Shown piece by piece: positions 22,343 to 60,879 of a stretch of 64,000 nucleotides of DNA. This DNA comes from Closterium sp. NIES-65 (Eukaryota; Streptophyta; Zygnematophyceae; Desmidiales; Closteriaceae). Every line of letters begins with the position of its first letter. Position 1 is the first letter of the stretch. The position numbers and the translations under genes were made by a program. The notes beneath the pieces are model-generated. The model searched no databases. It saw only the letters and a list, made by a program, of their open reading frames with translations, and had not been told where the DNA came from. The stretch is taken from positions 3,038,501 through 3,102,500 of the forward strand of contig CANXME010002001.1 in assembly GCA_948144175.1 (NCBI GenBank), in the 5' to 3' direction.

Positions 22343-25300
22343 ATGTCGCAGCCAACCATCTCCCAAGGCCGTAAGGGTGAGCAGGCGGGAGAGCAGGCGA
22401 ACGCAAAAAAAGGCCGTGGGCGTCGAAAGAGAGGTGGTAAGAAAGCACAATGCGCCACCGAGGAACGGCGCAAGCTCCCAGATGGCTTCAGCGCGGACAT
22501 TCTAGGTGAGAATGACGACGGTACGGAAACGTCCGCCGATCCGAACGGCTATGCGGTCGATAATGTGGCGCACGGTGAACAGGCGGTGTTTGGTGTGGCG
22601 AATGATGACGGTTCATATCGCGACGAGACGTAGGGCGAGAAGGTGGTTGGTGAAGCGGACAAAGGCGAAGCGGACGGAGGCGAAGCGGACGAAGGGGAAG
22701 CGGACGAAGGGGAAGCGGACGAAAGGGAAGCGGACGACGGCGAAGCGGACGAAGGCGAATCGGACGAAGACGAAGCGGACGAAGGCGAATCGGACGAAGG
22801 CGAAGCGGACGAAAGCGAATCGGACGAAGGCGACGCGGACGAAGGCGAAGCGGACGAAGGGGAAGCGGACGAAGGCGAAGCGGACGAAGGCGAAGCGGAC
22901 GAAGGCGAAGCGGACGAAGGCGGGGAGGGGGATGTCAGAATCCCAACCACTAGACCATTGGGATAAAAGAGCTTGTTTCAGTAGCGGGTCAGTGCGCCCA
23001 TAACCCCCCAGGCGAATGCGCCTGTAACCCTCTCCAGGATCAATCGGGCATCCACAGTGCAGATCTACTGACACCCCCCCACACTGGGAGGCCTTGGACT
23101 AAGCACAGCGGCAACGGCCTACATGTGCATACACCGGGAATCGAACCCGAGACCGCTCTAATACCATGTCAGAATCCCAACCACTAGACCATTGGGATAA
23201 AAGGGCTTGTTAAGTAGCGGGTCAGAGTGCGCCCATAACCCCCCAGGAAAACGCGCCTATAACCCCCCGTAGGATCAATCGGGCATCCACAGTGCAGATC
23301 TACTGACACCCCCCCACACTGGGAGGCCCAGGACTGAGCACAGCGGCAACGGCCTACATGTGCATACACCGGGATTCGAACCCGAGACCACTCTGACACC
23401 ATGTAAGAATCCCAGTCACTAGCTCATTGGGATAGAAGGGCTTATTTCAGTAGCGGGTCAGTGCGCCCATAACCCCCCAGACGAACGCGCCTGTAACCCT
23501 CTCCAGGATCAATCGGGCATCCACAGTGCAGATCTACTGACAGCCCCCCACACTGGGAGGCCCAGGACTAAGCGCAGCGGCAACGGCCTACATGTGCATA
23601 CACCGGGAATCGAACCCGAGACCGCTCTGATACCATGTCAGAATCCCAACCACTAGACCATTGGGATAAAAGAGCTTGTTTCAGTAGCGGGTCAGTGCGC
23701 CCATGGCCCCCCAGGCGAATGCGCCTGTAACCCTCTCCAGGATCAATCGGGCATCCACAGTGCAGATCTACTGACAGGGGAAGGCGAGGAGGGGGAAGGT
23801 GAAGGGGCGGAAGGCGGAGAGGCGGAAGGCGTAGGAGCTGTTGGCGAGGAGGCGGAAGGCGAAGGGGCGGAAGGTGGGGAGTGGGATGGCGAAGAGGGGG
23901 AAGGCGAAGAGGGGGAAGGCGAAGAGGGGGAAGGCGAGGAGGGGGAAGGCGAAGAGGGGGAAGGCGAGGAGGGGGAAGGCGAAGAGGGGGAAGGCGAGGA
24001 GGGGGAAGGCGAAGAGGGGGAAGGCGAGGAGGGGGAAGGCGAAGAGGGGGAAGGCGAGGAGGGGGGAGGCGAAGAGGGGGAAGGCGAAGAGGGGGAAGGC
24101 GAAGAGGGGGAAGGCGAAGAGGGGGAAGGCGAAGAGGGGGAAAGCGTAGGGGCTGTAGATGGGGCTGGAGAGGAGGTGGAAGGCGAGCAGGCAGAAGGAG
24201 AGGAGGCGGATGGGGTCCAGGCAGATGGCAACAATGTGGGCGAAGGCTTGTCCGATTACTCCAATTTTAGTGCAGAGGAGAGAACTAATGGGCGGCGGAC
24301 ACGCGTACAAGCACTTAGCCGCAGGTCGACGCTGGATGAGGATGAAGAAGCTGCACGAGTGGTGAAGAAAGGGCGGTTTATGATTCTGGGGGCCGCACCG
24401 GATGATACGCAACAGTGCGGTAACGGGCGTGGCGGAGAAGCAAAGGATAAACAAGGAGGGCAGACCGTGAAAGGGGCATTGGCGGCGGCGAAGCCACCCA
24501 CGAAGCACAGGAGTAAGAAGGCCAGCACTAAACCCCTTCCAAAGGGTAAAGGTGAAGCAACGGAGGGGAAGACAAAGACAAAACCTAAGCCCAAAAAGCG
24601 TAAGTCATCCATTTTTTGCCCTCCAGCCCTGTAACCCTTCGTTCTGACCCGCCTTGCTTTTTCCCATCCGTCTCTGTCAATACTCCCGTTGTCCCATGAA
24701 TATTCCCAACTAGCTTCCCTGAACCGTCCTGACCTGTCCCCTCATGCGCTATCCCATCCTAACCCGTCCCATCTTGCTCTCACCCTACACCAATCAGCGG
24801 TGAAGAATTCTGGTGTGGGTCCGCCAACCACCATCGAGCGATTCAACCTTGGGGGGGGAGGGGGGAAGCTGCCCCAGCTACAGGTCACCCAGCGGGCAAC
24901 TACTAGTGCGATGCAAGTGGGAGCAGCAGCAGCTCCTGCGGGTATGACTGTTGCGAGGGTGGGAGGAGCAGCGTCAACGGGAGGGAGGGTGGGAGCAGCA
25001 GCAGCATCAACTGGGGTGAAGGTGGGAGCAGCAGCAGCGTCAACGGGAGGGAGGGTGGGAGCAGTAGCAGCATCAACTGGGGTGAGGGTGGGAGGAGCAG
25101 CAGCGGCATCGACTGGAGGGAGGGTGGGAGCAGCAGCGGCATCGACTGGAGGGAGGGTGGGAGGAGCAGCGGCATCGACTGGAGGGAGGGTGGGAGCAGC
25201 AGCGGCATCGACTGGAGGGAGGGTGGGAGCAGCAGCGGCATCGACTGGAGGGAGGGTGGGAGGAGCAGCGGCATCGACTGGAGGGAGGGTGGGAGGAGCA

Positions 25301-29854: not shown

Positions 29855-30445
29855 CAGGTAATATCAGTTCTGGCGGCATTGGGGAAACTGCAGGAGAACC
29901 TGCGCATCTGTCTCCACGCACCCCATGTGCATCAGACAGTGGAGGAGGTAGCGATGGTGTTTGGGAGGATACAGGGGGACGCATGGGCGGTGAACAGCAA
30001 CCTCACTCAGAGGCGCACTCAACCACACTCCACATAGTCCATCTCACCCGTCCATCCCACTCCACCCATCCCAACCCACTCCACCCATCCTAACCCACCC
30101 ACCCGTGCATGCATGCACAAGACAGTGGAGGGGCTGGCGTTGGTGTTTGGGAGGATACAGGAGGACCCATGGGCGGTGCACAGCAACCTCACTCACAGGC
30201 GCACCCAACCACTTCGCATAGTCCAACCCACCCGTCCATCCCACTCCACCCATCCCAACCCACCCGTGCATGCACCAGACAGTGGAAGGGTTAGCGACAG
30301 TGTTTGGGAGGGTGCAGGAGGACCCATGGGCGGTGCACAGCAACCTCACTCAGCGGTGCTTCGCCAACTACATCGTGCGCACCCAGTTTGCCCGCCCCTG
30401 GGTGCACGCCATTGCCTACATGGCCTTTGTCAACGGCTCCGACAG
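29855..30445 (+). CDS. Kinase exons: CHASE N-terminal part, with triplicated exon edges
   Basis: 29855 follows an acceptor (CATCAG) and reads 'VISVLAALGKLQENLRICLH', an amphipathic CHASE start. The block 'HQTVEGLATVFGRVQ...AVHSNLTQR' occurs three times (about 29935-30010, 30113-30205, 30270-30350). Only the third continues into 'FANYIVRTQFARPWVHAIAY' and a donor at 30446. The third copy is in a different frame from the first two, so at least one is spliced out or alternative. The 3' edge (PWVHAIAYMAFVNGSD plus donor) recurs at 30498-30558 and 30617-30681. Confidence 0.65.
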
Positions 30446-33400
30446 GTACGACAACTTCTGAGGCGCCTCAAAAGGTACGTCTTTTGCACACGTCCGGTCC
30501 GCCCCTGGGTGCACGCACGCCATTGCCTACACGGCCTTCGTCAACGGCTCCGACAGGTGCGTCTTTCTCTCGGGTAGAGAGGCCACTTCTGAGGCGCCTC
30601 AGAAGGCGCACATGTCCCGTCCGCCCCTGGCCTGGGTGCATGCAATCGCCTGCATCGCCTTCGTCAATGGCTCCGACAGGTGCGTCCTCTTCTTAAGGTG
30701 ACTCAATTTCATGCTACTTAGGCTTTTAGAAAAAACCTTCAGAAGAATTACAAGTGCGCCCATTCCTGGACTGCCCTTGTCACCACTGGCGCCTTGGCGT
30801 GACCTGTTGATGATCCGATTTAGGAGGAGAGCTTGGGTCCATGCTCATGCACGCTTAAGTAGCAGCTCCCCACCTGGTTGGCGAGCTGGGCTGGGCAGCT
30901 CCCCACCTGGTTGGCGAGCTGGGCTGGGCAGAGCATTGTGCTTTTGTGCTTCTGACCCCGCCATCGTTTCACTCGGGTGAGTAGGCGAGAGTGCATGCGT
31001 GCATCCAATTACAGGAACCATGTTCAACGTACCTTGGTGTCAGCTACTGCAACCATGCTGATCATACCTTGGTGAGAAGGCGAGAGCGCGTTCTGGCTAG
31101 CGGGATCAACATGGCAGCAGTTAAGGTAGACGCACGGAACAAGGAAGATACAACACACTCAGCTTGTTGACATCCCATTGGTGAGTTATAATCCTAATCG
31201 TGTAGAGGAATGGCCAAGGGTGTAGCTCAGCCTATTAAGGTTAACCTTAGTTGGCCAAGTGTGAGTGCGTAACATGACCCATACTACATCCATAATACGA
31301 GTGATAAGCCCTCGTTGCTTCTATGGTTTCCCTCCCTCTGTCGCTTCCCCCACAGCCTGCAGGGCAACCTTTCAGCACCGCATGGTTATGATGAGCGCCT
31401 ATGAACTGTTTGTGCATTGCGTTGCCCATCTCAAAGCCACCCCATCCCATGTGCTCCCCCTCTCCTTGTCGCATGCTCTCGTCTCCCGCCATCTCCCCCC
31501 ATCTCCCGCCATCTCCCCCCATCTCCCTCCATCTCCCCGCCAGGGCAACCTTTGAGCGGCGCATGGGGTGCGAGCTGGTGGACCTTCTATGGCGCCGCAG
31601 CCCGCCCGCGAACTGGTACATGGACGTGCGCGTGTGGTTCGACAGCCAGTTCCCCTTGGCCCTCACTGTTGGCTACTCGCAGTGCCTGGACGGCCGCCTG
31701 AACCCCTCGTATGGCCCGCAGCTGACCCGCGTGAAGGAGACTGCTGAGAAGATGCTCACCACGCCCTATGTGCTCTCCAATGGCCATCCAGGCATGGGTG
31801 AGCGGGCAGGGGCGTGAACTGGGCTCATCTCAAGCATGCTGCCGCTTGTCTCCCCCTCGTGCTCCTCCCTCTCTCCCTTTTCTTTGTCATTTTCTCTGTT
31901 TCTACCCCCCCCCCCCCCCCCCCCCTTCATTTTGCTTTGCACTCGGTCGTCCATTTCACCTAATGTTGATCCAAATTCTCTTCGAATCATCCAGGCATGG
32001 TGTTCCCGATCTTCAAGGGTAGCGTGACGGCAGCATCGCCCTTGCAAGACAGGCAGGCTGCACTCATAGGTGTCGTGGCGGCATCCGTGGACTTTAGCCG
32101 CCTCGCCGACTTCATCATTCTGGAAGTGCTCCGCCAAGGTACGCTCGCCCGCCTACCTGCTCAACACAACAGCTATCCCGACTGACTGGCGATGCCAAAG
32201 CTTTGAGATGCCTCGAAACTCGACTTCAACTGCCTCGAAACTCGACTTCAACCGCCTCGAAACTCGACTTCAACCGCCTCGAAACTCGACTTCAACCGCC
32301 TCGAAACTCGACTTCAACCACCTCGAAACTCGACTTCAACCGCCTCGAAACTCGATTTCAACCGCCTCGAAACTCGACTTCAACCGCCTCGAAACTCGAC
32401 TTCAACCGCCTCGAAACTCGACTTCAACCGCCTCGAAACTCGACTTCAACCGCCTCGAAACTCGACTTCAACCGCCTCGAAACTCGACTTCAACCGCCTC
32501 GAAACTCGACTTCAACCGCCTCGAAACTCGACTTCAACCGCCTCGAAACTCGACTTCAACCGCCTCGAAACTCGACTTCAACCGCCTCGAAACTCGACTT
32601 CAACCGCCTCGAAACTCGACTTCAACCGCCTCGAAACTCGACTTCAACCGCCTCGAAACTCGACTTCAACCGCCTCGAAACTCGACTTCAACCGCCTCGA
32701 AACTCGACTTCAACCGCCTCGAAACTCACTTCAACCGCCTCGAAACTCGACTTCAACCGCCTCGAAACTCGACTTCAACCGCCTCGAAACTCGACTTCAA
32801 CCGCCTCGAAACTCGACTTCAACCGCCTCGAAACTCGACTTCAACCGCCTCGAAACTCGACTTCAACCGCCTCGAAACTCGACTTCAACCGCCTCGAAAC
32901 TCGACTTCAACCGCCTCGAAACTCGACTTCAACCGCCTCGAAACTCGACTTCAACCGCCTCGAAACTCGACTTCAACCGCCTCGAAACTCGACTTCAACC
33001 GCCTCGAAACTCAACTTCAACCGCCTCGAAACTCGACTTCAACCGCCTCGCAACTCGACTTCAACCGCCTCGCAACTCGACTTCAACCGCCTCGCAACTC
33101 GACTTCAACCGCCTCGCAACTCGACTTCAACCGCCTCGAAACTCGACTTCAACCGCCTCGAAACTCGACTTCAACCGCCTCGAAACTCGACTTCAACCGC
33201 CTCGAAACTCGACTTCAACCGCCTCGAAACTCGACTTCAACCGCCTCGCCAACTTAATCTTTCTTCAAGTGCTCCGCCTAGGTACGCCGGCTGATCAACC
33301 GAGTGACTTCTGAGTCGACCCAACAGTCACCTCGGGACCACAATGGCACACGGCACACAGCCTTGCCGTCTTCATCGTTGTTGCAGCCTTTTGTTGCCCC

Positions 33401-36400
33401 TGCGCAGGCAGAGAGGGAGTACTCCCCTTCAGTTCTCTGACGGCCAGTCTGCCTGCGTGCTGCTGTACCCCCCACATGCTTGCTGCAGGGTGCTGTTCAC
33501 ATAATAAATCAACTATACCTCCACGCTCTCACCAAATCACAGTATCCCCCTTCCGTTGCTGCAGGCGCGGACTATTCTCTGGAGGTGTATGACGTCACCC
33601 CCACGGATCTTCTCCCCAACTCCTCCACCCCGCTGGGCCCGCGCCTGCTGTACGGGGTGGGGGACTTGCCTCAAGGCAGCTTCATGCAAGTGGCCAAGCT
33701 CATTCCGCCGTCCAACGAGACCATGCTGCAGCCGCAGAGACACAAGGTGGTGCACCAGATCAACCTCACTGACTATGGTGGTGCACCAGATCAACCTCAC
33801 TGACTATGGTGGTGCACCAGATCAACCTCACTGACTATGGTGGTGCACCAGATCAACCTCACTGACTATGGTGGTGCACCAGATCAACCTCACTGACTAT
33901 GGTGGTGCACCAGATCAACCTCACTGACTATGGTGGTGCACCAGATCAACCTCACTGACTATGGTGGTGCACCAGATCAACCTCACTGACTATGGTGGTG
34001 CACCAGATCAACCTCACTGACTATGGTGGTGCACTAGATCAACCTCACTGACTCATTAAGAACATATCAGCTATGGTGCCGGTCAGTTGCCTTGCTTCCA
34101 TGGCAAGCGCTGCCCTTCCTTCGCTTCTTGACGTGCGCTGCTCTAGTTCAATAATATCGTATTCAACTTAAAGCCAATCTCGGCCTACGCTGCACTGTAC
34201 TGTCAACCTCCATTCCATTCCATTCCATTCCATCGGCTCCGTCGGCCCCCAATGTGCCTTCCCTAACGACTTTTGAGACGTCTCAAAATTGTGCCTCCCA
34301 GCTTCCAGGGCTCAGATGAAGCCCACAGCATCGGCTACCAGCCTCTGTTCCATTCCATGCCATCGGCTCCTTCTTCCCCCAATGCGCCTCCCCTATCCCC
34401 TCCCCCAGCTTTCAGGGCTCGGACGAAGCCCGCAGCATGACTGCTGTGTTCCTGGGGGTGATCATCGTGGTGGTGGCGGCGCTGCTGGCCGGCATTGCCG
34501 TGAGCGTGACAATCAACACGCGCAGGCTGCGCGAGAAGACGGCTGCTGTGGAGAGGCTGAAGGAGAGCGCGGAGGTGGCGGAGCGCAACAAGAGTGCCTT
34601 CATTGCCAGCACAGCGCATGAGCTGCGCACCCCCATCAATGGCATGGAAGGTTCGTGGCAATGAGGTGCATAAGTACAAGTACTTCTGCAATGGCATGGA
34701 AGGTTAGTGGCAATGAGGTGCATAAGTCTCAGATCGTACAAGTACTTTTGTTTTTGTTATTTACCTTTCAATGTTGCCCTGCTCCTGCGGCACTGTCCCT
34801 GTTGGGGTGAGGTAGAGATTGTTACAAACCTTTCTCAGCTGATGATTGCACAATCACTGTGTTGTACTCTTCACATTCCAATCTCTGCGAATTCCCACTC
34901 GCTGTGCCAACCACAACCACCCGGCAGGCATGCTCAAGCAGCTGGACGAAGGAGGGCTGGACGGGGGGCAGAGGGGGGACGTGGGGGCAGCAGTGGAGGA
35001 GGCGGAGCGCATCCTGAGGCTCGTCAACGCCGTGCTGGACGTGTGCAAGGCGGAGGCCGGCCGCCTGCACCTGGAGAGCCTGCCCTTTGCCCTCCGCCCC
35101 TGGCTGCGTGACGTGCTGCTCCCACACGAGCAGGCTGCTCAGGAGCGCGGCCTCGAATGTAATCACCCTGATTCACCTTTCTCCAACCCGTGTCTTGATT
35201 ACCAGTTCCTGCTTTCTTTTCTCTCCGAAGAGCTGGCTCCCCTTTTTCCTTTTGATCCTTCAACAAAGGATGCCTGTTGTTTATGCCCATGTCATGATTG
35301 CCTGATTCTGCTTGCGTTTCTCTTCATGCAATTGGTGGATTCTTGCTTTTCTAATGGCCTGGATTTTTCTGCGTGTGCATGTGAGTGCGTGTTCAGTGAC
35401 ATGGCGTGTGGATGGGGATGTGCCCGGTGTGCTGGTGGGGGACTACCTTCGCCTGCAGCAGCAAGTGGTCGACAGAATAGTCGGTGAGTAGATGAAGATG
35501 AGTCGAATCTAATCACTGGCACTGGACGTGATGTGGGTGACGTTGGATGTGATGTGGGTGAGGTTGGATGGGCTTGGGTGCAAATGAGGATGAGGCGAGT
35601 TTAGTCAAGCCCGCGTAGAGTGGAGTGGAGTGGTCGACGCTTTTCCCGTCTCGAGAGTCCACATCTTGCCTTGGTTCGGCTGTCTCGAGGCGAGTATTCT
35701 GACGTGCACGTCAGCTTCGACTTTGCTATTGGGAGGAACTGGCGTGCAACGAGCCACTAGAGTTTGCTTCAGTCGGTTGACTAATGTAATGCTACCTGTA
35801 CGATGAGTCGACTCGACTCGCCTCCACATGAGCCTCTCGTGCTGATCTGCCTAGCCAACGGGTATGGATGAGGCCGGAACACCCAGACGCAAAGCGTTCA
35901 CACCCTATTTTAAATTAATTCACAGGGTTCCCAGTCGAGGGTCAGTCACACACTAGGCATGAGCGTAGCTCCAAGCCGAGCCTGCTTGTTTTGAGGTGCA
36001 CCGAGCCGAGCCGGCAGGCAGCTACCCGGCTCGTGTTTCGCGCGCCATAGGTGGTGAGGCGGGTGAGTTGGTTGATATGGGACGAGCAGATTCATTGCAG
36101 GGATGAATGGACTGAATTGAGCTGGGAGATTTTTTAGATGAATGGACTGGACTGTTTTTTCTCCCCGCCGTCACGTTCATTTTGTTTTGGGCTAAACTGA
36201 GCTGGATTAAGCTGAATTGAGCTGAATTAAGCTGAATTGAGTGAATTGAGCTGAATTGGGCTGAAGTGGGCTGAATTGGGCTGAATTGAGCTGAATTGAG
36301 CTGAATTCAGCTGGATTGAGCTGAATTGAGCTGAATTGAGCTGACTGGATTGAGCTGAATTGAGCTGAATTGGGCTGAATTGAGCTGAATTGAGCTGAAT

Positions 36401-39400
36401 TCAGCTGGATTGAGCTGGATTGAGCTGAATTGAGCTGAATTGAGCTGACTGGATTGAGCTGAATTGAGCTGAATTGAGCTGAATTGAGTTGGGAAATCGT
36501 GAAGATGAATGGGCTGCACTGAAGTCGCGTTTCAAACCCTTAGGGATGCTCATCTGTACGTGCTAATCCTCCCCCGTCTCCACGTGCTGCACATGCCCAC
36601 CGCCCAGACAACGCCATCAAGTTCACGGCCAGCGGAGGCGTGTGTGTGCGGCTGCAGTGCCTTCCCCCCGACACCCACATCCCCACCCACCTGCTCTCCC
36701 TCGGCTGCCTCCTTGCCGAAGAAAATTCCGGCTGCTCCTCGCCTGCCGCTGCTGCTGCGGCTACCACCGCTGCTGCTACGAATGCCGATTCTGCCTTTGC
36801 TGCTGTTGCCACCGCCGCTGCTGCCAGTGCGGGAGTGCATGGGAACGAAGTGGGAGAGCCTCTGCTTAGGATGTCCTTCTGGGAGCAGGTGGGGCAGCGA
36901 GGGCTGGCGAGGGCGGTGACGGGCGCATGCAATAAACGGGTGTTCCAGAGGGGCTTGTCCGCGCAGTGCCTCGGGTGCTACTGGCGCATGCCCCCCGTTG
37001 ACGAGGGGGGGCAGGAGCAGGAAAGTGAGCAGAGGGGGGAGAGTAAGGAGAAGGATGAGAGGGAGGAGGGGGAGGAGAGGGAGGATGGGGAGGAAAGGGA
37101 AGGAAACCCGATGAGGGCAAGCGCTAGGGAACAAAGTGGTGCGTATCAGCAAAGCGGGGGAGATGGGGCCGGCGAGAGGCCAGGAGGAACTAAAGGGGGT
37201 GACCCGTCACCGGGATGGGGTTGAGAACGGTGGAGAATGGTCGGTGGTGAGGTAGGAAGCCAAGGCAGAGGCGAGAGGGTTTGCAGTGAGTTGAGCGAAG
37301 GCAAGGGTAGTGCTGCATCATGGGGTACGGGAGATGAGGAGGGTGAGCGTGGGGGCATGGGGTCATGCACTGGTTTGCGGGGAACAAGAGCGCGTGGTGG
37401 GCATGCTGTAAATGCAGCAGAGAGGGCATCACCAGGGGTTGGTGGTATGGGCTGGTGGAGGGGAGCAGTTGAGAGGTGGTGGCATGGGCGGGGCAGAGAG
37501 GAGGGCACGGAGGAGGAGGGGGGGGGTGGCAGGCGGTGTGTGGTGCTGGTGACATGTGAGGACACGGGGTGTGGCATCGCAGAGGAGGAGCAGCGCGACG
37601 TGTTTCAGGCGTTCATGCAGGTGAGCCCTGCCCCTCATGCAGGTGAGCCCTGCGCCGCATGCAACCCACCTCATGCCATACACCTGATTAAGGTGAACCA
37701 TGCATTCGATTTGATTATCCGAGGATTTGACTCCGAAAAAGCATCCATTTTTCAAGTAGCCGCAATAAGGAGGCACACAGTCGCCAGCTTAATCTGCCTA
37801 GCATCTATCCACGTGCGACTTTCTCAGTCCACCGACCATTGCATTCTCGTGCTTCTCACAACACCTACCCATCAGACCCGTGCACACGGAGGCAGCGGCA
37901 TAAGCCTGCACTTGTGTCAGCAGCTGGTGAGTCATTCTGTGGACAGTTCAACCAGGTGCTTTCTTGTCGTCCTTTCATGCACTTGTTAACTCTCGGAGTG
38001 ATTTTTACTTCAAACTTCCTCTCACAGCACTGCCACACTGACTTTCATTTACAATCATCCACAATAATTCGTCTGCTGTGACACAATCCCACACCCCCAT
38101 GGCAGGTATCGCTGATGGGGGGCAGCATAGGGCTGCTCAGCACAGAGGGTCACGGCACCACCCTGCACGTCGCGCTGCCCATGCCTGTTGCTGCTGCCAC
38201 TGCTGCCGCAGCTGTGTGCGGTAGCTTCAGTTCCGGCAGCGCCAATGTTTCGGGGCCGCAGGCGATCTGTGCGGACGACGAAGCAGCTGCCTCAAGAGCA
38301 GTGGGGACGAAGAGTGCGAGGGATGGTTTGAAGGAGTTGTTGCAGGGCAAGGCAATTCTGGTGAGATGCAGAGCTTAAACCGGAAGGACTCTCGTGTGCT
38401 TGTGAGGGTTGTTTCAGGCACCGATTCTCTCCATGCACCGATTCTCTCCATGCACCGATTCTCTCCATGCATTGATTCACACTGACCTCAGTTGTATCTG
38501 CATCCCTCACCACACTCCCCACAACCCAACCCCTCTTCTCCTTGTCCCGTCGTTACAAAGCAACAGTTCTCTGCCCTCCCACACATGGCTGATGGCAAGA
38601 TTGGTGGTGCTCACTTGCTGATCCTCCCCAACCACCCCTGTGTGTGACTGCTCTTCCTCATGTCCCCCCACGCAGCTGATTCATGCACGTCAAAGCAGGA
38701 GACACAGGCCGTCTCCCTCTCCGCCTTCAATCTCCTCTGCTCTCACCCCCTCTCCACCCTGCTTGTATGCCCTTCGCCTCTCCCTTTTCACATGCCATCT
38801 CCGTGCCTCCATGCTCATCCCCTGTCCACCTCCCTACATTCCTCACGCTCTGCCTGTGCAGGCACGTGGTGGACCACAGCTCCATCCACCACGCCTCCGT
38901 TGTCAACCCCTCTCTCAAGCTCTCCCTCTCAATCCTCCCCTGCACCATGCACCAGGTGGTGGACCACAACGCCATCGTCGTCCCTCCATTCTCATCCCCT
39001 CTCTCCCCCCCTCCCCTGTACCCCCTATGTGCACCAGGTGATGGACCATAACGCCATCAACCGTCCCACCATTTTCACCCTCTCACCACCCCCCCTCTAC
39101 CCCCCTGTGCTACCAGGTGGTGGACGACAACTTGATCAACCATCGCACCGTTATCACCCCTCACCACCCCCTCTACCCCCTTGTGGTGGCCAGGTGGTGG
39201 ACGACAATCTGATCAACCATTCTCAGCCCCTCTGCATCCCTATCTGTACCCTCTCTATCCACCAGGTGGTGGCAGCGAGCACGCTGGCGCGGTACGGGGC
39301 GGAGGTGGCGCTGGCAGAGTCGGGCGAGGCGGCGCTGCGCCTGCTGCAGGCAACCCACTCCTTCCACCTCGTGCTCATGGACCTCCTCATGCCCGGCCTC

Positions 39401-39751
39401 GATGGCTTCCAGACCACCGCCGGCCTGCGCGCTCTCGAGGTTGCTGCTCACAATGCTCAGAGAGGGGTGCAAGGAGGGCAGGGGGCACAGGGGGAGCGGG
39501 GAGCACTGGCTGTGCACAAGGGGCAGGGGGCTCAAGACGTGCAGTGCATGCCCATGGTGGGGGAGAGTGGGGTGGGGGGTGCGTTTGGGGGCTGGCAGCG
39601 GCAGCAGCGCGTTCATGTGGTGGCCATGTCAGCAGATGTGGACAGCACTGTTGCCGCCCATGCAGCAGAGGTTGGCATGGATGGTGCCGTGCAAAAGCCA
39701 CTCAATGAGAGAGTGCTGCTGCAGGTGCTCTCAACACTTCATGGTTTGTAA
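29855..39751 (+). CDS. CHASE-domain hybrid histidine kinase (cytokinin-receptor-like), multi-exon
   Basis: Membrane sensor kinase of the plant cytokinin-receptor type. CHASE binds the ligand outside. The kinase core autophosphorylates on His, and the fused receiver takes the phosphate on Asp before transfer to HPt proteins. Exons with compatible phases: 29855-~30005 (probable), 30279-30445, 31544-31797, 31995-32138, 33565-33746, 34416-34650, 34928-35158, 35397-35483, 36608-37620 (internal intron likely), 37876-37926, 38106-38360, 39117-39149 and 39266-39751 (stop). The order is CHASE, one TM helix, HisKA, HATPase N/G1/F/G2 boxes, receiver. The 5' exon is missing. One in-frame TGA (37222-37224) lies in an acidic, low-complexity insert of the ATPase exon, which I take to be partly intronic. 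Most introns contain duplicated exon edges. Land-plant receptors also have an extra pseudo-receiver, not seen here. Confidence 0.85.
30446..31543 (+). other. Kinase intron with exon-edge copies and short repeats
   Basis: Holds two further copies of the upstream exon end (30498-30558, 30617-30681) and a 33-bp direct repeat CAGCTCCCCACCTGGTTGGC... (30863-30929, two copies). It also holds a copy of the next exon's start (31358-31385: acceptor plus GGCAACCTTTCAGCACCGCA) about 185 bp before the real one. No other gene is seen. Confidence 0.6.
31544..32138 (+). CDS. Kinase exons: CHASE central part
   Basis: 31544-31797 encodes 'ATFERRMGCELVDLLW' through 'RVKETAEKMLTTPYVLSNGH'. 31995-32138 encodes 'GMVFPIFKGS' through 'AALIGVVAASVDFSRLADFI'. 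The LTTP block aligns with the LTAP block of Arabidopsis AHK receptors, where a threonine contacts the hormone. The 'VFPIFK...GVV' pattern is the usual CHASE beta-strand end. The intron between them (31798-31994) is flanked by the direct repeat CATCCAGGCATGG. A C run lies at about 31907-31925. Confidence 0.8.
32205..33250 (+). repeat. 22-bp intronic minisatellite derived from the CHASE exon end
   Basis: About 47 near-perfect copies of GACTTCAACCGCCTCGAAACTC fill the intron after the exon ending at 32138. The unit resembles the exon's own 3' end (GACTTTAGCCGCCTCGCCGAC, 32091-32111). On the right the array runs into a second version of that exon end plus donor (33232-33285). Because 22 is not a multiple of three, all plus frames stay open by chance. 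I do not treat it as coding. Confidence 0.85.
33286..33564 (+). other. Kinase intron, right part
   Basis: Non-coding 279 bp between the second exon-end copy and the next exon. It ends in TTGCTGCAG. Nothing else is seen. Confidence 0.5.
33565..33746 (+). CDS. Kinase exon: CHASE C-terminal part
   Basis: Encodes 'GADYSLEVYDVTPTDL' and 'GPRLLYGVGDLPQ' up to 'QPQRHK'. The 'VYDVT...YG' pattern matches the C-terminal strand of plant CHASE domains ('VYDVTN...MYG'). Its phase fits the exon ending at 32138 (1/2 split Gly codon) and the transmembrane exon at 34416. Confidence 0.8.
33747..34050 (+). repeat. 31-bp tandem array starting at a splice donor
   Basis: About nine or ten units of 31 bp (GGTGGTGCACCAGATCAACC...) start exactly at the donor after the CHASE exon. 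Each unit repeats the same AG/GTGGTG-like donor context. The units are nearly identical, so amplification is recent. Confidence 0.85.
34416..35158 (+). CDS. Kinase exons: transmembrane helix and HisKA dimerisation domain
   Basis: 34416-34650 encodes a hydrophobic helix 'AVFLGVIIVVVAALLAGIAV', a Lys/Arg-rich coiled segment, and the H box 'AFIASTAHELRTPINGMEG' with the phospho-accepting His. 34928-35158 encodes the second HisKA helix ('ILRLVNAVLDVCKAEAGRL', 'LPFALRPWLRDVLL'). An earlier copy of the acceptor plus first ~25 bp of the TM exon lies at 34303-34333. The donor end of the H-box exon recurs at 34684-34715. Confidence 0.9.
35397..38360 (+). CDS. Kinase exons: HATPase catalytic domain
   Basis: 35397-35483 encodes 'TWRVDGDVPGVLVGDYLRLQ'. 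36608 onward encodes the N box 'DNAIKFTASGG', then a long Ala- and Glu-rich insert, then 'VLVTCEDTGCGIAEEEQRDV' (G1 box) and 'FQAFMQ' (F box) to 37620. 37876-37926 encodes the G2 box 'TRAHGGSGISLHLCQQL'. 38106-38360 encodes 'LMGGSIGLLSTEGHGTTLHV' and a Ser/Ala linker to 'GKAIL'. All ATP-lid motifs are present, so catalysis is plausible. The insert between N and G1 boxes contains one in-frame TGA. A short intron ending at GGTGGCAG (about 37533) would remove it. Confidence 0.8.
36190..36490 (+). repeat. Intronic GAATTGAGCT repeats
   Basis: About 28 imperfect 10-bp units of GCTGAATTGA in the intron before the N-box exon. They are partly palindromic (GAATTGAGCTGAATTC-like). No coding use. Confidence 0.8.
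38361..39265 (+). other. Kinase intron region with 15-bp repeats and receiver-edge copies
   Basis: Three to four units of CACCGATTCTCTCCATG lie at 38416-38475. From 38866 to 39265 there are repeated pyrimidine tracts plus acceptors plus copies of the receiver exon start, listed separately. Confidence 0.6.
38866..39298 (+). repeat. Six-fold array of the receiver-domain 5' edge (candidate 33-nt microexons)
   Basis: Copies start at 38866, 38956, 39038, 39117, 39194 and 39266 (spacing 90 falling to 72 bp). All but the first directly follow a polypyrimidine tract and (C)CAG; the first lies 4 bp beyond one. They read VVDHSSIHHAS, VVDHNAIVVP, VMDHNAINRPT, VVDDNLINHRT, VVDDNLINHS and, in the last, VVAASTLARYG, which opens the main receiver exon. 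The fourth (39117-39149) is 33 nt, is followed by GT, and is in phase with both neighbours. It would supply the Asp-Asp pair of the receiver's acidic pocket. The first copy also has GT after 33 nt. Confidence 0.7.
39266..39751 (+). CDS. Kinase last exon: receiver (REC) domain
   Basis: Encodes 'STLARYGAEVALAESGEAAL' and 'HLVLMDLLMPGLDGF', which holds the phospho-accepting Asp in the usual MDLxMP context. A low-complexity Gly/Gln insert follows. Then come 'VVAMSADVD' (Ser at the Thr/Ser position), 'DGAVQKPLNE' with the conserved Lys, and a stop at 39749-39751. The exon lacks the first strand and acidic pair, which must come from an upstream microexon. Confidence 0.9.
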   Translation: MVAASTLARYGAEVALAESGEAALRLLQATHSFHLVLMDLLMPGLDGFQTTAGLRALEVAAHNAQRGVQGGQGAQGERGALAVHKGQGAQDVQCMPMVGESGVGGAFGGWQRQQRVHVVAMSADVDSTVAAHAAEVGMDGAVQKPLNERVLLQVLSTLHGL

Positions 39752-40693: not shown

Positions 40694-40786
40694 CCACACT
40701 GTGGATGCAGATCTACTGACACCCCCCCACACTAGGAGGCCCAGGACTAAGCACAGCGGCAACGGCCTACATGTGCATACACCGGG
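40694..40786 (-). repeat. Inverted TRIM fragment
   Basis: Minus-strand copy of a TRIM LTR start and interior, head-to-head with the following plus-strand array. The pair (40694-40786 and about 40965-41055) could form a long hairpin. Confidence 0.75.
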
Positions 40787-40789
40787 GGG

Positions 40790-41391
40790 TGTCAGTAGAG
40801 CTACACTATGAGATCCCCGATCGATCCTAGGGGGGGTTACAGGCGCGGTTGCCTGGGGGGTTATGGGCGCACTGACCCGCTACTGAAACAAGCCCTTTTA
40901 TCCCAATGGTCTAGTGGTTGGGATTCTGACATGGTATCAGAGCGGTCTCGGGTTCGATTCCCGGTGTATGCACATGTAGGCCGTTGCCGCTGTGCTTAGT
41001 CCTGGGCCTCCTAGTGTGGGGGGGTGTCAGTAGATCTGCACTGTGGATGCCCGATTGATCCTGGAGAGGGTTACAGGCGCGTTCGCTTATGGGCGCACTG
41101 ACCCGCTACTGAACTAAGCCTTTTTATCCCAATGGTCTAGTGGTTGGGATTCTGACATGGTATCAGAGCGGTCTCGGGTTCGATTCCCGGTGTATGCACA
41201 TGTAGGCCGTTGCCGCTGTGCTTAGTCCTGGGCCTCCTAGTGTGGGGGGGTGTCAGTAGATCTGCACTGTGGATGCCCGATTGATCCTGGAGAGGGTTAC
41301 AGGCGCGTTCGCCTGGGGGGTTATGGGCGCACTGACCCGCTACTGAAACAAGCCCTTTTATCCCAATGGTCTAGTGGTTGGGATTCTGACA
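40790..41391 (+). mobile_element. Tandem TRIM array, three LTRs and two interiors
   Basis: LTRs at 40790-40931, 41025-41157 and 41251-41391, with 93-bp interiors. PBS-like TGGTATCAGAGC directly follows each LTR (40932, 41158, 41392). The A-box-like TGGTCTAGTGG is at 40907-40917 and the B-box-like GGTTCGATTCC at 40951-40961, 33 bp apart. The last PBS is followed by a different, GC-rich interior. Confidence 0.85.
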
Positions 41392-42995
41392 TGGTATCAG
41401 AACGACGTTCGTTCTGGCCTGTGCGCCCGCCTCACGTTTCCGCTGCTACGATTTTCCGGTCGCGCGCCTAGGGCGCGTGGCGATTTTTCCCTGTCCCGCC
41501 CCCGGTCGGCGTGTGACGCCTTCTCTGCCCGTCGCGCGCCCCGTGGCACGCGACGGTGCCCTTAACCTGCCCGTCGTGCGCCCCGTGGCACGCGACGGTG
41601 CCCTGCTCGTCGTGCGCCCCGAGGCACACGATCGGGCCCTTTCACTTGAACTTACCCGTCGTGCGCCCCGTGGCACGCGACGGGCCTTTCCGCCCCTGCT
41701 CTCCCTGAAGCCGCCCCTGACCTATCAGCGCCGACACCGTTTAGCCGCTCTGCAGCTTTCTTCCCGCCCACCCCCTCCTCTTTTGTCTCCCTGCAGCCGT
41801 GGGGAGGAGGGTATGGGGGTGGCGGGTGTTGGAGTGTTGGGTCGACTCTTTCCCTTCCCCTCCTCCTCCTTTCAGTCCCACCGCTGCAGCTGCCGCTGGG
41901 GGGGAGGGTGTGAGGGTGTGGGGGAGCAGGGGGAGTGGTACCGGGGTGGCGGGTGTGAGGCAACAAGCAGCCGTCCCTCCATCTCTCCTCTCTTCCCCCC
42001 TTCTCTGCTGCTCCTGCAGCAGTGTGGGGGAGGGGAAGGAGGAGGGTGAGGAGATGGAGGGGGTGACCAGCTAGTGTCAGCCCGCCTGCATTACCTGCTG
42101 TTGCTTGCTTTTCATTATTTTGCATGTGTACACCTGCAGGTTGTATTCTGCACATATTCCTGCTGCAGGCAGTTACAAATATAGGTTTTGACAAGGCAAA
42201 CATTAAACAGTTATACAACTGTAATCTAGGACTTCGCCATGTTGTCTTGGTAAAACGGTTGTCAAACTCAACTGCATTTGGCTTGATCCGCTTCATTAGA
42301 ATAACTGATTTCAAATGACACTTCATCCAAATGCCCCTGCTGACTCCCTTCGCGAGCACTCATGATTTCCCGTTAACATTCATGAAGCCTCGTGTGGGAA
42401 AACCGTTTTCCCGTTGCAAAACGGAATTTACCGTTTTGTACCTTGTCGAAATGATCACGCAATGTGGCGTGACTTTCTGGCGAAACCTCATGTTTGCCAA
42501 GTCAACACGGGATACAGTTTTTCAACTGTAAATCCCGAGTTCCCCACGTGCCAGCCAGCATGACCGAGATATTTCTCGGTCATGCAGGACAGGACGATCG
42601 CGTATGCGATCGTGCGCTATCCTGGCGCGAGACAGGGCAGTAGTTTGCCCTGTCTTGATGCGATCGTGGGCCCTGCCACGCTCGTAACAGTTCCGAAGCA
42701 CACGCGCGAGCCCTGAGAGGCCACACGCGTGTGTCAGAACCCCACGCGCGGGTCCAGACCTTCGCGCGCGGTTGACCTTGACCAGCGCGACTTAGTCAAC
42801 GTGGCAAAACACTCGCAACTCTCTAAAACGCACAGAAAATATGAACTCTCATGAACTCTAATAAAAACTCACTAAAACACATGAGAAACAATGAGCACAT
42901 ACGCAAATTCATAAACAATCGCGAACTCACGCGAACTTACCGAAACTCACGAACTTTCCTGCGCTTTCACAGAAACACATGAACATTCATGAAAT

Positions 42996-43365
<370 letters not shown>

Positions 43366-45014: not shown

Positions 45015-48000
45015 ATGGCTAGCCCACAGGTTCTCGTGTTCGATGCTGAGGGCCGCCCTCTGAAGTTTGACACCTGGCTCGATGACCTGCACCTCTACCT
45101 ACAGCTCACAGCCAAGGATGACATCTCACTGTACGATCACGCCCTAGGCCATGTCACTGCCCCTGCTGCTACTGCTGACAGCACTGCTTGCTCACAGTGG
45201 CAGACTCGTGATGCCCACGCTCGCTTCGCCATTCGCAACTCCCTGCCGATAGACGAACGCGAGCACTTTGGTCAGCACAAGACTGCACAGGCACTGTACA
45301 CAGCTGTAGTTGCTCGCTACTCCTCACCTGCCTCTGCCGCACTAGGCCGTCTCTCCCTCCCCTACCTGTTTCCCGACCAAGTCTCCTTTCACACAGTCGC
45401 TGACCTCATCACGCACCTCCGTACTAGTGAGGCCCGCTTCCGTGCCGCCATGCCTGCTGAGTTCCTTGCCACGCACCCCCCTCCACTCTGGCTCACTCTC
45501 TACCACCTAGTCACCCGCCTCCCTGACACACTGCGTGCTGTCAGGGACCACTTCCTAGCTCGTTGCCCCACTGAGCTCACCATTGCCCTCCTCGAGAAGG
45601 AGCTACTTGCAGCTGAGACTAGCATAGTCGCTGTAGGTGCCTCTCGTGGCGACCCCCGTACCCCGTTCTTTGAGGGGTGTTCTCCTTCCCCCCTTCTTCC
45701 CTATATCGCCTCTGCTGCTGCTGTCGACCTTCTTGGTACTGAGAAGGTCGGCACTGCGTCTGCCTCGAGCGGACGCCGCAGCGGCAAGGGCAAAGGGGGC
45801 AAGGGTGGTGGCGGTGACGGCGGGGGAGGCGGCGGTGGGGGCGGTGGAGGCAGTGGGGGTGGTGGCTCGGCTGGAGGGGCGAGTGGTAGCGGTGGGGGTG
45901 GTGGCGGCAGCGGCGAGGGAGGTGGCAGGAGTGGAGGCGGCGGTTGGGGTGGCGGTGGACGAGGCGGCGGCAGGGGTTGGGGTGGTCGAGGAGGTGGCAG
46001 CGGTGGTGGTGGCCGTGGAGGCACTGGCGGTGGCCAGGGCCAGCAGCACACTCCCTCGCCCCAGGAGGTCCGTGAGTGGTACTCTCAGCACGGGGGTGGG
46101 GGTGGTCTTAGCTGCACGTACATCATTCGCACTGGTGACCGCACTGGTCAGCAGTGTGGACGACCGCACGCCACACAGCGCTGCTCCTCTCGTCTCGACG
46201 ACGCTTGGCGTGTTCAGCTCCCTCAGGCCACTGAGCTGCCCCGCTGGCTTGATCTCCTGAAGAAGGGGATTGATATCTATGCTCTAGACTTTGATGCTAT
46301 TCTATCTGCCATGTATGTGATGTCTACTAGTGGAGAGGGTGCTCAGTACTTGTGTGTGCCGCCCGACCCGGGCATTAGGGCCAGTGCGTCTGCCGCTCCA
46401 GGTACTCGCGTGTCGGCTACCTTAGGTGTTGGTGAGGCTGCTGCTCTAGGTGCTCGTGTGTCTCCCCCCCTTGGTACTGCGTCGACTGCCGCACTGCATA
46501 GCTTCACACTGGACTCAGGTGCTTCTCGCTGCTTCTTTCGTGACCGCACTGCCCTTGAGCCGCTTGCTCAGCCAGTTGCTGTCTCCCTTGCTGACCCCTC
46601 TGGGGGTCCGGTCATTGCGACCTCTTCCACTGTCCTTCCCTGCCCTGCGGTCCCGTCGGGCACACTGTCAGGTCTCCACCTCCCCTCGTTCTCTACGAAC
46701 TTGGTGGCAGGATGTGCACTCCAGGACGGGGGTGTTCACCAGTTCACCCCTGCCTACGAGCGCGTGACACACTGCACGTGTGCTCGTACGGGCCGTCACT
46801 TGGCTACCTTCACTCGGCAGCCGGGGTCGGACCTGTACACACTGACTACTGAGTCCCCTCAGGTTGCTGCGACTGCGTCCGCGTCCGCGTCAGGTCAGCT
46901 GTCCGCCCCCTGCTCGTGTCGCTCTTTGGCACACGAGACTGTCCTCTGGCACCACCGCCTTGGCCACCCATCTGTGCAGAGGCTTCGTGCCATGCACTCC
47001 CGGTATCTTGTCTCTGGCCTGCCCAGGGTCCTTCCTGCCCTCCCACCCTCGCCTGCTCCTACCTATCTCCCCTGTGTCGAGGGACGGCAGCGCGCCACTC
47101 CTCACTCCTCCTCGTTCCCCCCGACGACTGCTCCCTTGCAGACACTCCACATGGACGTGTGGGGCCCAGCCCGCGTCCGTGGTCAGGGTCAGGAGAGGTA
47201 CTTCCTGATAGTTGTTGACGACTACTCGCGCTACACCTCGGTCTTCCCCTTGCGCACCAAGGGTGAGGTCCCTGATGTCTTGATCCCTTGGATCCGCAGA
47301 GCCCGTCTCCAGCTCAGCGAGCGTCTTCACTCGGACTTTCCTGTCCTGCGCTTGCACTCTGACAGAGGTGGTGAGTTCTCCTCCGACCTCTTGGCAGCCT
47401 ACTGTGCTGAGCACGGCATTGAGCAGTCGTTCACGCTTCCGGCTTCTCCACAGCAGAATGGGGTTGCGGAGCGCCGCATTGGCCTGGTCATGGAGGTCGC
47501 CCGTACCTCCTTGATCCATGCGGCTGCCCCCCACTTTCTGTGGCCGTTTGTGGTCCGGTACGCTGCGCATCAGCTCAACCTCTGGCCCCGTGTCTCCTTG
47601 CCGGAGACCTCGCCCACGCTGCTGTGGACGGGGGAGGTTGGCGATGCGTCGCGTTTCCGGGTCTGGGGGTCTCGAGCTTTTGTCCGCGATTCGTCTGCGG
47701 ACAAGCTCTCCTCCCGTGCTGTTCCCTGCGTCTTCCTCGGCTTTGTCCCGGACGCGTCTGGTTGGCAGTTTTACCACGCAACCTCGCGCCGAGTCTTGCC
47801 CTCCCAGGACGTCACTTTTGACGAGTCCGTCCCCTACTACCGCCTCTTCCCCTACCGCACTGCCCCGCTCCCCCCCCCCCCGCCTCTCTTCCTCGCGCCA
47901 GGTGCTGCTGTTGCAGACCCCCTCCCCCCTCAGGGTGCCGCTCCCTCAGGTGTGTCTCAGGTAGACCCGGTTGAGCCTGTTAAGGTAGCTGTCGACTCTC

Positions 48001-48272
48001 GTCCTGCTGGGGGTGCTGAGCCTGGGGGTGCTGAGCCTGGGGGTGTGGAGCCTGGGGGTGTGGAGCCTGGGGGTGTGGAGCCTGGGGGTGTGGAGCCTGG
48101 GGGTGTGGAGCTTGAGGGTGCTGAGCTCGGGGGTGTGGAGCCTCGTGGTGCTGAGCTGCGGAGTCCGGAGTCTGGGGGTTCTGAGTCTGGAGGTACTAGG
48201 CCTGGGAGTCCTGCACCTGGATATATATATGTATATATATATATACATATATATATGTACTCCTGCATGTGA
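45015..48272 (+). CDS. Copia F: gag, protease and integrase frame
   Basis: Taken from the ATG at 45015 ('MASPQVLVFDAEGRPLKFD'); the frame is open from 44877. Order: copia gag of about 300 residues, a Gly-rich stretch, and a Cys/His cluster spaced C-X13-C-X3-H-X4-C. Then come retropepsin with 'FTLDSGASRCFF', the GAG-pre-integrase 'HHRLGHPSVQRLRAM', and the integrase core ('MDVWGPARVRG', 'LHSDRGGEFSSDLLAAYC', 'SPQQNGVAERRIGLVMEVAR', the DDE positions). The frame ends in EPGGV-type pentapeptide repeats (about 48010-48190). It looks open through these parts. The closest relative in the window is copia G. Confidence 0.9.
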   Translation: MASPQVLVFDAEGRPLKFDTWLDDLHLYLQLTAKDDISLYDHALGHVTAPAATADSTACSQWQTRDAHARFAIRNSLPIDEREHFGQHKTAQALYTAVVARYSSPASAALGRLSLPYLFPDQVSFHTVADLITHLRTSEARFRAAMPAEFLATHPPPLWLTLYHLVTRLPDTLRAVRDHFLARCPTELTIALLEKELLAAETSIVAVGASRGDPRTPFFEGCSPSPLLPYIASAAAVDLLGTEKVGTASASSGRRSGKGKGGKGGGGDGGGGGGGGGGGSGGGGSAGGASGSGGGGGGSGEGGGRSGGGGWGGGGRGGGRGWGGRGGGSGGGGRGGTGGGQGQQHTPSPQEVREWYSQHGGGGGLSCTYIIRTGDRTGQQCGRPHATQRCSSRLDDAWRVQLPQATELPRWLDLLKKGIDIYALDFDAILSAMYVMSTSGEGAQYLCVPPDPGIRASASAAPGTRVSATLGVGEAAALGARVSPPLGTASTAALHSFTLDSGASRCFFRDRTALEPLAQPVAVSLADPSGGPVIATSSTVLPCPAVPSGTLSGLHLPSFSTNLVAGCALQDGGVHQFTPAYERVTHCTCARTGRHLATFTRQPGSDLYTLTTESPQVAATASASASGQLSAPCSCRSLAHETVLWHHRLGHPSVQRLRAMHSRYLVSGLPRVLPALPPSPAPTYLPCVEGRQRATPHSSSFPPTTAPLQTLHMDVWGPARVRGQGQERYFLIVVDDYSRYTSVFPLRTKGEVPDVLIPWIRRARLQLSERLHSDFPVLRLHSDRGGEFSSDLLAAYCAEHGIEQSFTLPASPQQNGVAERRIGLVMEVARTSLIHAAAPHFLWPFVVRYAAHQLNLWPRVSLPETSPTLLWTGEVGDASRFRVWGSRAFVRDSSADKLSSRAVPCVFLGFVPDASGWQFYHATSRRVLPSQDVTFDESVPYYRLFPYRTAPLPPPPPLFLAPGAAVADPLPPQGAAPSGVSQVDPVEPVKVAVDSRPAGGAEPGGAEPGGVEPGGVEPGGVEPGGVEPGGVELEGAELGGVEPRGAELRSPESGGSESGGTRPGSPAPGYIYVYIYIHIYMYSCM

Positions 48273-48526
48273 ACTGGCCTTGTGGCCTTGAACTTGTGCT
48301 CGGATTGTGGGGTGACATTGTGATCCACCCTGAGCTTGCTTTGCTTTACTTGACTGGTCTTGTGACCCCTAGTTCTCCCCCACTTCGCCTATGGGGGTGT
48401 GTCAAACATTATATATATTGTTGTAGTTATTTAGGCTACAGCGGGTTAGCCTATAGGGGGTACACACTTCTAGGTTTCCATATTTGTACTCATTTCATTC
48501 TTAGTCATTTCATTCCTTGTTCAACA
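48205..48526 (+). repeat. Internal 3' UTR plus LTR segment within copia F
   Basis: A TA-rich stretch, a copia-type 3' UTR, TATGGGGGTG and then a 127-bp LTR (48400-48526, TGTCAAAC to TTCAACA) lie between the integrase and RT parts. The LTR shares the family core but is not identical to the F terminal LTRs. No primer site follows it. It marks recombination between related copies or a nested relict. Confidence 0.75.
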
Positions 48527-49904
48527 GCGTTACGTTGCACGAGGCTTCAGTCAGCGAGAGGGAGTTGACTTCTTCCAGACCTTCTCCCCGACCCCGAAGA
48601 TGACCACTCTTCAGGTTCTGCTGCACGTCGCCGCTCAGCGTGACTACGAGCTCCACTCGCTTGACTTCAGCACTGCTTTCCTGCAGGGCAGCCTGCACGA
48701 GGAGATCTGGCTGCGCCGTCCACCTAGCTTCACTGGGTCGTTCCCTCCTGGTACCCAGTGGAGCCTCCGACGGCCAGTCTACGGTCTCCGCCAGGCGCCT
48801 CGTGAGTGGCACGACACACTGAGGACTACGCTTGCGGCTCTTGGGTTCGCGCCTTCTACTGCTGACCCGTCGCTGTTTCTACGCACCGACACCTCACTGC
48901 CGCCGTTCTACATGCTTGTGTACGTCGACGACTTTGTCTTTGCTACTGCTGACACTTTGGCACTCGCCCACGTGAAGTCGGAGCTGCAGAAGAGACACAC
49001 GTGCACAGACCTGGGTGAACTGACAAGCTATCTTGGCTTGCGGATCACCCGGGACAGAGCACGCCGCACCAGCACCTTGACTCAGTCACACATTGTGCAG
49101 CAGGTCATTCAGCGCTTCCGCTTCACGTACTCCTCGCCTCAGCCCACTCCTCTGCCTACCGGTCACTCGCTCTCAGCTCTGCCTTCGGATGAGTCCGTAG
49201 AGCCGAGTGGCCTGTATCCAGAGCTTGTGGGTTGCCTCATGTACCTGATGACCTGCACTCGACCAGACCTTGCATACCCTCTCAGCATTCTTGCACGCTA
49301 TGTCGCTCCCGGCCGTCACCGGAAGGAGCACATGGATGCAGCTAAGAGGATGTTGCGCTACTTGTGCAGTACGTCGGGCATGGGGCTAGTGCTTGGAGGG
49401 CGAGTCCCAGTTGTTCTCACTGGGCACTCAGACGCTTCTTGGGCAGACGACCAGGCTACTCAGCGGTCGTCTCAGGGTTACTCCTTCAGTCTTGGCTCTG
49501 GTTCTGTTTCTTGGCGTTCTACTCGCTCTTCTTCTGTTTTCAGCTCCAGTTGTGAGGCTGAGATCTACGCCACAGCCATGGCGGCCCAGGAGCTACGCTG
49601 GCTCACCTACTTGCTGACCGACCTTGGAGAGCAGCCTCGTTCTCCTCCAGTGCTGTACGTCGACAACAAGGCAGCCATTGCCTTGTGTGAGGAGCACAGA
49701 CTGGAGCACAGAACGAAGCACATTGCTCTGCGTTACTTCCTTGCTCGAGAGCTGCAGCAGCGTGGTCAGCTTCGCCTGCGTTACGTGGCCTATGAGGCCA
49801 ACACTGCTGATGTGTTCACCAAGGCGCTTCAGCCTTGTGACCATCAGCGCTTTTGCACTCTTCTAGGCCTTGTGCCTACTGGACCTCACTTGCTTACTTC
49901 TTGA
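48527..49904 (+). CDS. Copia F: RT and RNase H part
   Basis: RVT_2 reverse transcriptase from 'VARGFSQREGVDFFQTFSPT'-like sequence through 'FYMLVYVDDFVFA' (YVDD). RNase H follows ('SDASWADDQATQRSSQGY', 'SSSCEAEIYATAMAAQELRW', 'VLYVDNKAAIALCEE'), ending 'GPHLLTS'. It is a separate open frame from 48600. Similar to copia H and G. Confidence 0.85.
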
Positions 49905-50274
49905 GTCTGTTTGTACTGTGATCTCTATATATATACCTGCATGTTTACTCTTGTTAGGTTGTGACCATTGTACCTTTTGCTCTATTATAAACCTGCATGT
50001 GAACTGGTCTTGTGACCACTTGCTTGTGCTCGGAATTTGTGTGGTATCCTTGAGATCCACCCTGAGCTTGTTTTGCCTTGCTTTGCCTTGACTGGTCTCG
50101 TGACCCCTAGTTCTCCCCCACTTTGCCTATGGGGGTGTGTCAAACATTATATATGTTGTGTTAGTTTAGGCTACAGTGGGTTAGCCTATAGGGGGTACAC
50201 AAGTCTAGGGTTAGGTACTTGTACTCATTTCACTGCTAGTTCATTCATTCCTGTTCAGTGATTCCAACATGCAC

Positions 50275-52047: not shown

Positions 52048-52101
52048 GGTGTTCTAACGGCAAGAAGTCCAAAAATACTCAGAACCAGCTCTGATACCAC
52101 G

Positions 52102-53830: not shown

Positions 53831-53908
53831 AGTGTTACACTGATCTGTAAGTGTATCGACGTAGGCCACATTGATGCCTTAGGGTAAATTCTCCCTTAGC
53901 GAAGATTA

Positions 53909-55795: not shown

Positions 55796-55891
55796 ACAAG
55801 TTCAAGGCCACAAGGCCAGTTCACATGCAAGATCATATACAAAGGTAAACAAGCAAGTGCAGGTATAGAAAAGATCACAGTACCAGCAACG

Positions 55892-60831: not shown

Positions 60832-60879
60832 GGCAGAAAGAATAGCATAAAAAACAAGAACATAGATGGCAACTCCCGC

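Follow-up and report, generated by a model that had tools for sequence, protein, structure and literature searches.

The window analysed here is a 64,000-nucleotide stretch of DNA (C1703:3038501-3102500), and our subject is a CHASE histidine-kinase gene on its plus strand, at about 29.9-39.75 kb, in which a number of exon-intron borders recur inside the adjoining introns. The gene model was built by homology and begins at exon 1, where the CHASE domain starts, without the N-terminal exons. It comprises twelve exon pieces, the phases of which are compatible throughout; on comparison with paralogues from the same genome, exon 4 was later taken to end at 34081 and exon 5 to begin at 34409. When the spliced product was compared with Pfam, with the long loop of exon 8 replaced by X, the CHASE, HisKA, HATPase_c and receiver domains all scored above the curated cut-off, and in a PDB search the protein best matched AHK4, in its sensor and receiver structures; the organism is therefore probably of the green-plant line. 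The gene is a CHASE histidine kinase akin to the plant cytokinin receptors. No relatives of it were found when viral contigs were searched for them. Its exons, in window positions, are as follows.

30279..30445, plus strand: exon 1, start of the CHASE domain; the start at 30279 agrees with the paralogues
31544..31797, plus strand: exon 2 (model and paralogues)
31995..32138, plus strand: exon 3 (model and paralogues)
33565..34081, plus strand: exon 4, with a 31-bp array (33746-34053) that contains in-frame stops; limits from the paralogues
34409..34650, plus strand: exon 5, transmembrane (TM) helix and H-box (paralogue comparison)
34928..35158, plus strand: exon 6 (model and paralogues)
35397..35483, plus strand: exon 7 (model and paralogues)
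36608..37620, plus strand: exon 8, encoding the N-box, a long loop and the G1 and F boxes; the TGA at 37222-37224 is in frame (model)
37876..37926, plus strand: exon 9, G2 box (model and paralogues)
38106..38360, plus strand: exon 10 (model and paralogues)
39117-39149, plus strand: micro-exon of the spliced model, within the copies of the receiver start
39266..39751, plus strand: last exon, receiver, the first codons of which lack the VDDNLINRR segment of the paralogues (model, paralogues and motif scan)

A first-pass annotation of this DNA had listed ten cases in which an exon edge appeared to be repeated in this gene. We checked them by reading the letters, with Tandem Repeats Finder, by self-BLAST and by probing each border against its own intron. 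Eight of the ten are indeed local copies of exon borders; they are listed below, with each probe score set against that obtained on the reversed intron.

29914..30359, plus strand: intron end, acceptor and start of exon 1 (the 5' block of CHASE), three copies, the third running into the exon (self-BLAST, 29914-30195 against 30095-30352 at 79%, and 29928-30016 against 30271-30359 at 85%)
30392..30706, plus strand: end of exon 1 and donor, three copies, the first joined to the exon (self-BLAST, 30392-30563 against 30499-30686 at 73%, and 30397-30471 against 30631-30706 at 80%; probe 55 against 16)
31355..31580, plus strand: acceptor and start of exon 2, two short copies (31358 and 31541), the second joined to the exon (probe 37 against 17)
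32090..33287, plus strand: end of exon 3 and donor, two copies around a 22-bp array of 47 copies (Tandem Repeats Finder; self-BLAST, 32090-32144 against 33233-33287 at 85%)
34297..34438, plus strand: acceptor and start of exon 5, the TM exon, two copies (self-BLAST, 34297-34331 against 34404-34438 at 89%; probe 50 against 13)
34638..34730, plus strand: end of exon 5 and H-box donor, two copies 52 bp apart (probe 63 against 17; a diagonal scan agrees)
37613..37663, plus strand: end of exon 8 and F-box donor, tandem copies of a 22-bp unit (Tandem Repeats Finder; probe 34 against 14)
38863..39265, plus strand: acceptor and receiver-start copies, reported as six; a motif scan finds five, at -310, -228, -149, -72 and 0 from 39266 (spacing 72-82 bp), and self-BLAST a weaker one near 38863 (also Tandem Repeats Finder)

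The remaining two cases held in part. The sequence CATCCAGGCATGG is present at both ends of intron 31798-31994, but as a duplication it is marginal, because the last six of its 13 bases are exonic at both ends (protein ..GMGM..) and the paralogues share the intron. A 13-bp insertion scar was rejected here, the intron being common to the paralogues. The 31-bp array at 33746-34053 is real (9.9 copies, 99%), but it had been misassigned: it is not an array of donors, a reading that we rejected since exon 4 runs to 34081 by comparison with the paralogues, and lies inside that exon.

Tandem arrays are generally error-prone in assembly, and repeats misjoined by the assembler would be one explanation of these structures. 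However, the same structures recur on the haplotype contig C2320, which differs from the window by three mismatches over 9785 aligned bases and by two length changes of at least 10 bp (45 bp in the 22-bp array and 17 bp in a 17-bp array), and this makes an assembly error unlikely. Moreover, the copies inside one gene diverge from each other by 10-30%, and nine paralogues carry their own copies. We therefore regard an artefact of this kind as exceedingly improbable.

At least nine close paralogues (P1-P9) were found in the same genome beside the window gene (W), using a 601-base query from the window and a receiver-peptide query, and a haplotype partner was listed for at least seven of the ten genes. 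On contig C1703, at least seven members of the family lie together between 1.92 and 3.08 Mb. P1-P8 were compared over the modelled gene and P9 in part: in the 11.8 kb taken for P9 we found exons from number 10 onwards only, and these served for the receiver counts and for one intron of the diagonal scan. Ten intron positions are common to W and P1-P8 wherever the exons were modelled, amounting to 82 of the 90 possible introns in these nine genes. Eight introns were excluded: the model of P1 is short of several exons, those of P4 and P5 have no exon 9 acceptor, and that of P7 has neither a donor for exon 4 nor an acceptor for exon 5, with none missing in P2; the exon 3 donors of P1, P7 and P8 were modelled one or two bases off. 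Since the positions are shared whether or not the border is duplicated, the introns were in place before the family spread, and the border copies came afterwards. Duplication had been put forward as a route of intron gain at the borders of the window gene; the introns there are not absent from its relatives, and the proposal fails on this point.

The frequency of copied borders was then considered across W and P1-P6. With 50-base probes and a cut of 30, 27 of 126 borders, donors and acceptors alike, were copied in their own intron, against one of 126 when the intron was reversed. The same test on windows inside the introns of these seven genes found 190 of 560 repeated, against 31 of 560 on reversed sequence. 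For the window gene alone, six of 20 scored borders passed, against 46 of 93 inner intron windows, and the earlier statement that nearly every exon edge is duplicated was thus overstated. The diagonal scan, which fragments gapped copies such as those of the exon 1 donor, gave 97 repeat clusters in 83 introns, 22 of them border-spanning against 17.3 ± 3.6 at random placement; on shuffled sequence it gave no repeat clusters. In a BLAST-based count, which apparently overlooked tandem copies lying close together, among them those of the H-box donor, 22 of 57 clusters spanned a border against 13.3 ± 3.0; raising the cut left 48 clusters, of which 19 spanned a border against 11.8 ± 2.8. Depending on the method, border-spanning clusters are therefore 1.3 to 1.65 times as frequent as expected at random. 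A lack of border excess had been named by the first-pass annotation as evidence against its own reading, and this is what we found per window and in the diagonal scan, the BLAST-based count giving a moderate excess. Borders are copied at about the same rate as the rest of the intron sequence, or perhaps a little more often, and part of any excess could reflect the longer time for which a copy held by selection stays recognisable. Local repeats make up 20.5% of the window, 41% of the introns of the window gene and 18% of its exons.

Further evidence on the origin of the copies comes from the haplotypes. Six haplotype gene pairs contain 24 length differences of at least 10 bp, three of which are border units. 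In P3, the exon 10 donor edge is single in one haplotype and stands three times in tandem, 26 bp apart, in the other, where the two extra 26-bp units head a 440-bp insertion. The exon 8 donor of the same gene (loci L019/L020) consists of six near-identical sites every 22 bp, with one unit more in the other haplotype; the extra donors are exact repeats of the real one, and only the first keeps the reading frame. In P4, a donor-like unit of 20 bp downstream of exon 9 distinguishes the two haplotypes. In the undoubled haplotype of P3, the motif TGCAGG is found on both sides of the exon 10 donor at a distance of exactly 26 bp, the size of the unit, which suggests slippage. The border copies would be explained most simply by slippage between short repeats on either side of the splice site.

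Such a process would begin with short direct repeats flanking a splice site, between which replication would slip, so that a block made of an exon end and intron start, or of an intron end and exon start, is duplicated. The coding sequence would stay with the copy attached to the exon body, whose sites are presumably those used by the spliceosome; any further copies would become intron. Because the extra copies fall within the intron, the change would be nearly harmless, and the copies could then persist, grow into arrays or decay. We consider it likely that the border copies are what have been called mirages, that is, minisatellite-like tandem duplications lying across the borders of old introns.

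The window gene itself is probably a recently disabled copy that has taken up repeats inside its exons as well. The in-frame TGA of exon 8 is present in both haplotypes, and the reading frame is not intact, on account of this codon and, unless the exon 4 array is spliced out, of the stops in that array. The motif scan shows the DDN segment to be missing from the last receiver copy of the gene. An intron skipping the TGA was considered and rejected, because P3, P3h, P4h, P5, P7 and P8 read through the exon 8 loop in a single open frame. Besides W and its haplotype, exon 8 is broken in P1, P1h, P2, P2h, P4, P5h and P6. The ratio of non-synonymous to synonymous substitution (dN/dS) ranged from 0.22 to 0.56 over 21 pairs and did not separate open from broken copies. 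The exon 4 array and the split receiver exon could also be read as newborn introns, but the nonsense codon in both haplotypes favours a dying gene.

Several observations weigh against the picture of slippage across old borders in a disabled gene. The TGCAGG match is short: the longest match averages 2.7 bases over shifts of 10-79, and a shift of 74 also gives six. In P4, P8 and P5, which lack copies of the exon 8 donor, the flanking matches are 4 to 7 bases long and none at 22 bp is among the best shifts. The moderate border excess of the BLAST-based count indicates that borders may be somewhat special after all. Two tubulin loci examined as a control had no local repeats, such that the repeat density may be peculiar to this locus or to loci of its kind; two tubulin introns scored 10 to 22 in the probe test, below the cut of 30, a sample too small to carry weight. 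The dN/dS values in the six pairs that involve the window gene (0.24 to 0.54) do not mark it as dead. Finally, an insert in exon 5 of P6 looks like a real intron gain.

This insert (contig C1731, loci L027/L028) is 244 nt long, runs from GT to AG and splits exon 5. It consists of degenerate exon copies, is preceded by CTGGCAG and ends in CTGGCAG, with CTGGCAG followed by GT at both ends, and its last 57 bases repeat the preceding exon end in degenerate form. Without the insert the conserved reading frame is back, and the protein matches that of the other genes. None of the eight other genes for which exon 5 was available has an interruption there, and the insert is thus missing from its relatives; exon 8 of P6 has a broken frame alongside it. 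On its sequence, the insert is a candidate for intron birth by tandem duplication. The reading of the border copies as intron gain thus finds its best support in this paralogue and fails for most of the window gene.

It was originally supposed that the window gene displays many stages of intron birth, through tandem duplication of exon segments bearing AG and GT. The P6 insert has the anatomy expected of such a process, in a place where the other eight genes are unsplit, and each unit of the exon 4 array in the window gene carries one GT and one AG, and in-frame splicing of the array would be possible in principle. However, the acceptor of that array has hardly any pyrimidine tract, as judged by eye, the ten introns at the duplicated borders are common to the paralogues, and P6 and the window gene share a broken exon 8. 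As an account of the window gene we find this proposal unlikely. A more general version, which we put forward only tentatively, is that the kinase family is a live intron nursery, in which one genome would show every step: short direct repeats to either side of a splice site, a border duplicated in one haplotype and not in the other, arrays, decay and, in P6, a finished intron derived from a duplicated stretch of exon. Separately, P7 (L029/L030) and P8 (L031/L032) have an extra intron in the receiver exon, after the LDG motif, with copies of its donor edge inside. It is missing from the other genes, and the direction may be gain or loss.

Nine of the ten genes have between one and seven extra copies of the tract, CAG and GTGGTGGACGACAAC in the intron before the receiver exon, 30 in total, against a motif-scan background of 0.011 per shuffled intron; in P3, the motif scan of this intron found no extra copy. 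Among the 23 of these 30 copies that were compared, from five genes, identity was 0.572 within genes and 0.576 between genes. Being as alike between genes as within them, the copies suggest that the array is older than the split of the family.

The extra splice-site copies make alternative splicing possible, and the repeats might accordingly be maintained as a device for it, for example to provide alternative receiver starts. The number and spread of the receiver copies would fit this idea, as would the good conservation of CAG and core between variable flanks in the 23 copies and the identity of the extra exon 8 donors of P3 to the real one. Against it, P3, whose exon 8 is open, has no receiver copy, and its extra exon 8 donors would lead to a frame shift or to a stop at the 16th codon. 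Among the 23 receiver copies, deviation from the consensus in a hand count was similar at first and second codon positions (about 9%) and at third positions (about 8%). Nor is the conservation of the core evidence of selection, because resemblance to the core was how the copies were chosen, and this exaggerates it. We consider a maintained splicing device very unlikely, and mirages on old introns remain our preferred explanation. Recursive splicing at copies in which CAG is followed by GT is a matter of speculation.

Other repeats occur in and around the gene. A near-perfect palindrome of the TTGAGGCGCCTCAA type is found at 30458-30471, 30589-30602 and 34273-34286, all three in introns of the window gene. 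Three occurrences in the window were reached by one of 100 shuffles, and the palindrome core is present eight times in the ten loci (in W, P6 and P7) against 0.85 in shuffles; it is possibly a tiny hairpin element. The gene is flanked by tandem arrays with units of 234 bp (22932-23776) and 226 bp (40784-41401), the consensus units of which include mutual reverse complements, as seen by eye. At 42997-43360 there is a pure CA run of 182 units. Further out, at 1-21800 and 48000-61000, the window contains many long open frames with reverse-transcriptase-like motifs, which, from these motifs, are suggestive of long terminal repeat (LTR) retrotransposons.

Mirages at about one-fifth of the tested borders of a receptor-kinase family of plant type would, if our reading is correct, provide a second and distant system for their study, with border copies that differ between haplotypes. 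They open questions about the choice of a splice site beside its own copies, the lengthening of introns and the seeding of new introns by duplications.

Mirages, defined as border-spanning minisatellites, were named in the lancelet Adh3 gene and are also described in the lancelet globins BflGb6 and BflGb9, along with differences between haplotypes and a proposed model for gaining introns (PMC3087553); they are mentioned for troponin C and PGBD5 (PMC3902484). The kinase repeats resemble them in that tandem copies span both 5' and 3' borders, with units from tens of bases up to about 160 (PMC3087553), in that copy number varies between haplotypes (here at the exon 8 and exon 10 donors of P3 and the exon 9 donor of P4), and in having been put forward as a source of introns. 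They differ in belonging probably to the green-plant lineage and in affecting a whole kinase family, at 27 of 126 borders across seven genes. Concerted evolution is reported for BflGb6 (PMC3087553), in contrast to the receiver copies, which are no more alike within genes than between them, but we do not hold this trait to be defining.

Intron gain by duplication has also been described, through a border-crossing duplication in a potato RdRp gene (PMC4974935) and in cases from Drosophila (PMC2891723). Exon 5 of P6 appears to be similar, in that a duplicated exon end would supply both donor and acceptor and restore the frame, whereas in the window gene the introns preceded the duplication of their borders. 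The protein shares with AHK4, a plant-type CHASE histidine kinase, the CHASE, HisKA, HATPase_c and receiver domains, and is unlike it in the long low-complexity loop of exon 8 and in that the window copy is probably disabled. In the literature searched, which was mostly open-access, we found no paper on border-spanning mirages outside lancelets. The phenomenon itself is thus already known from the lancelet genes, and what would be new here is its occurrence in a distant lineage and at an unusual density.

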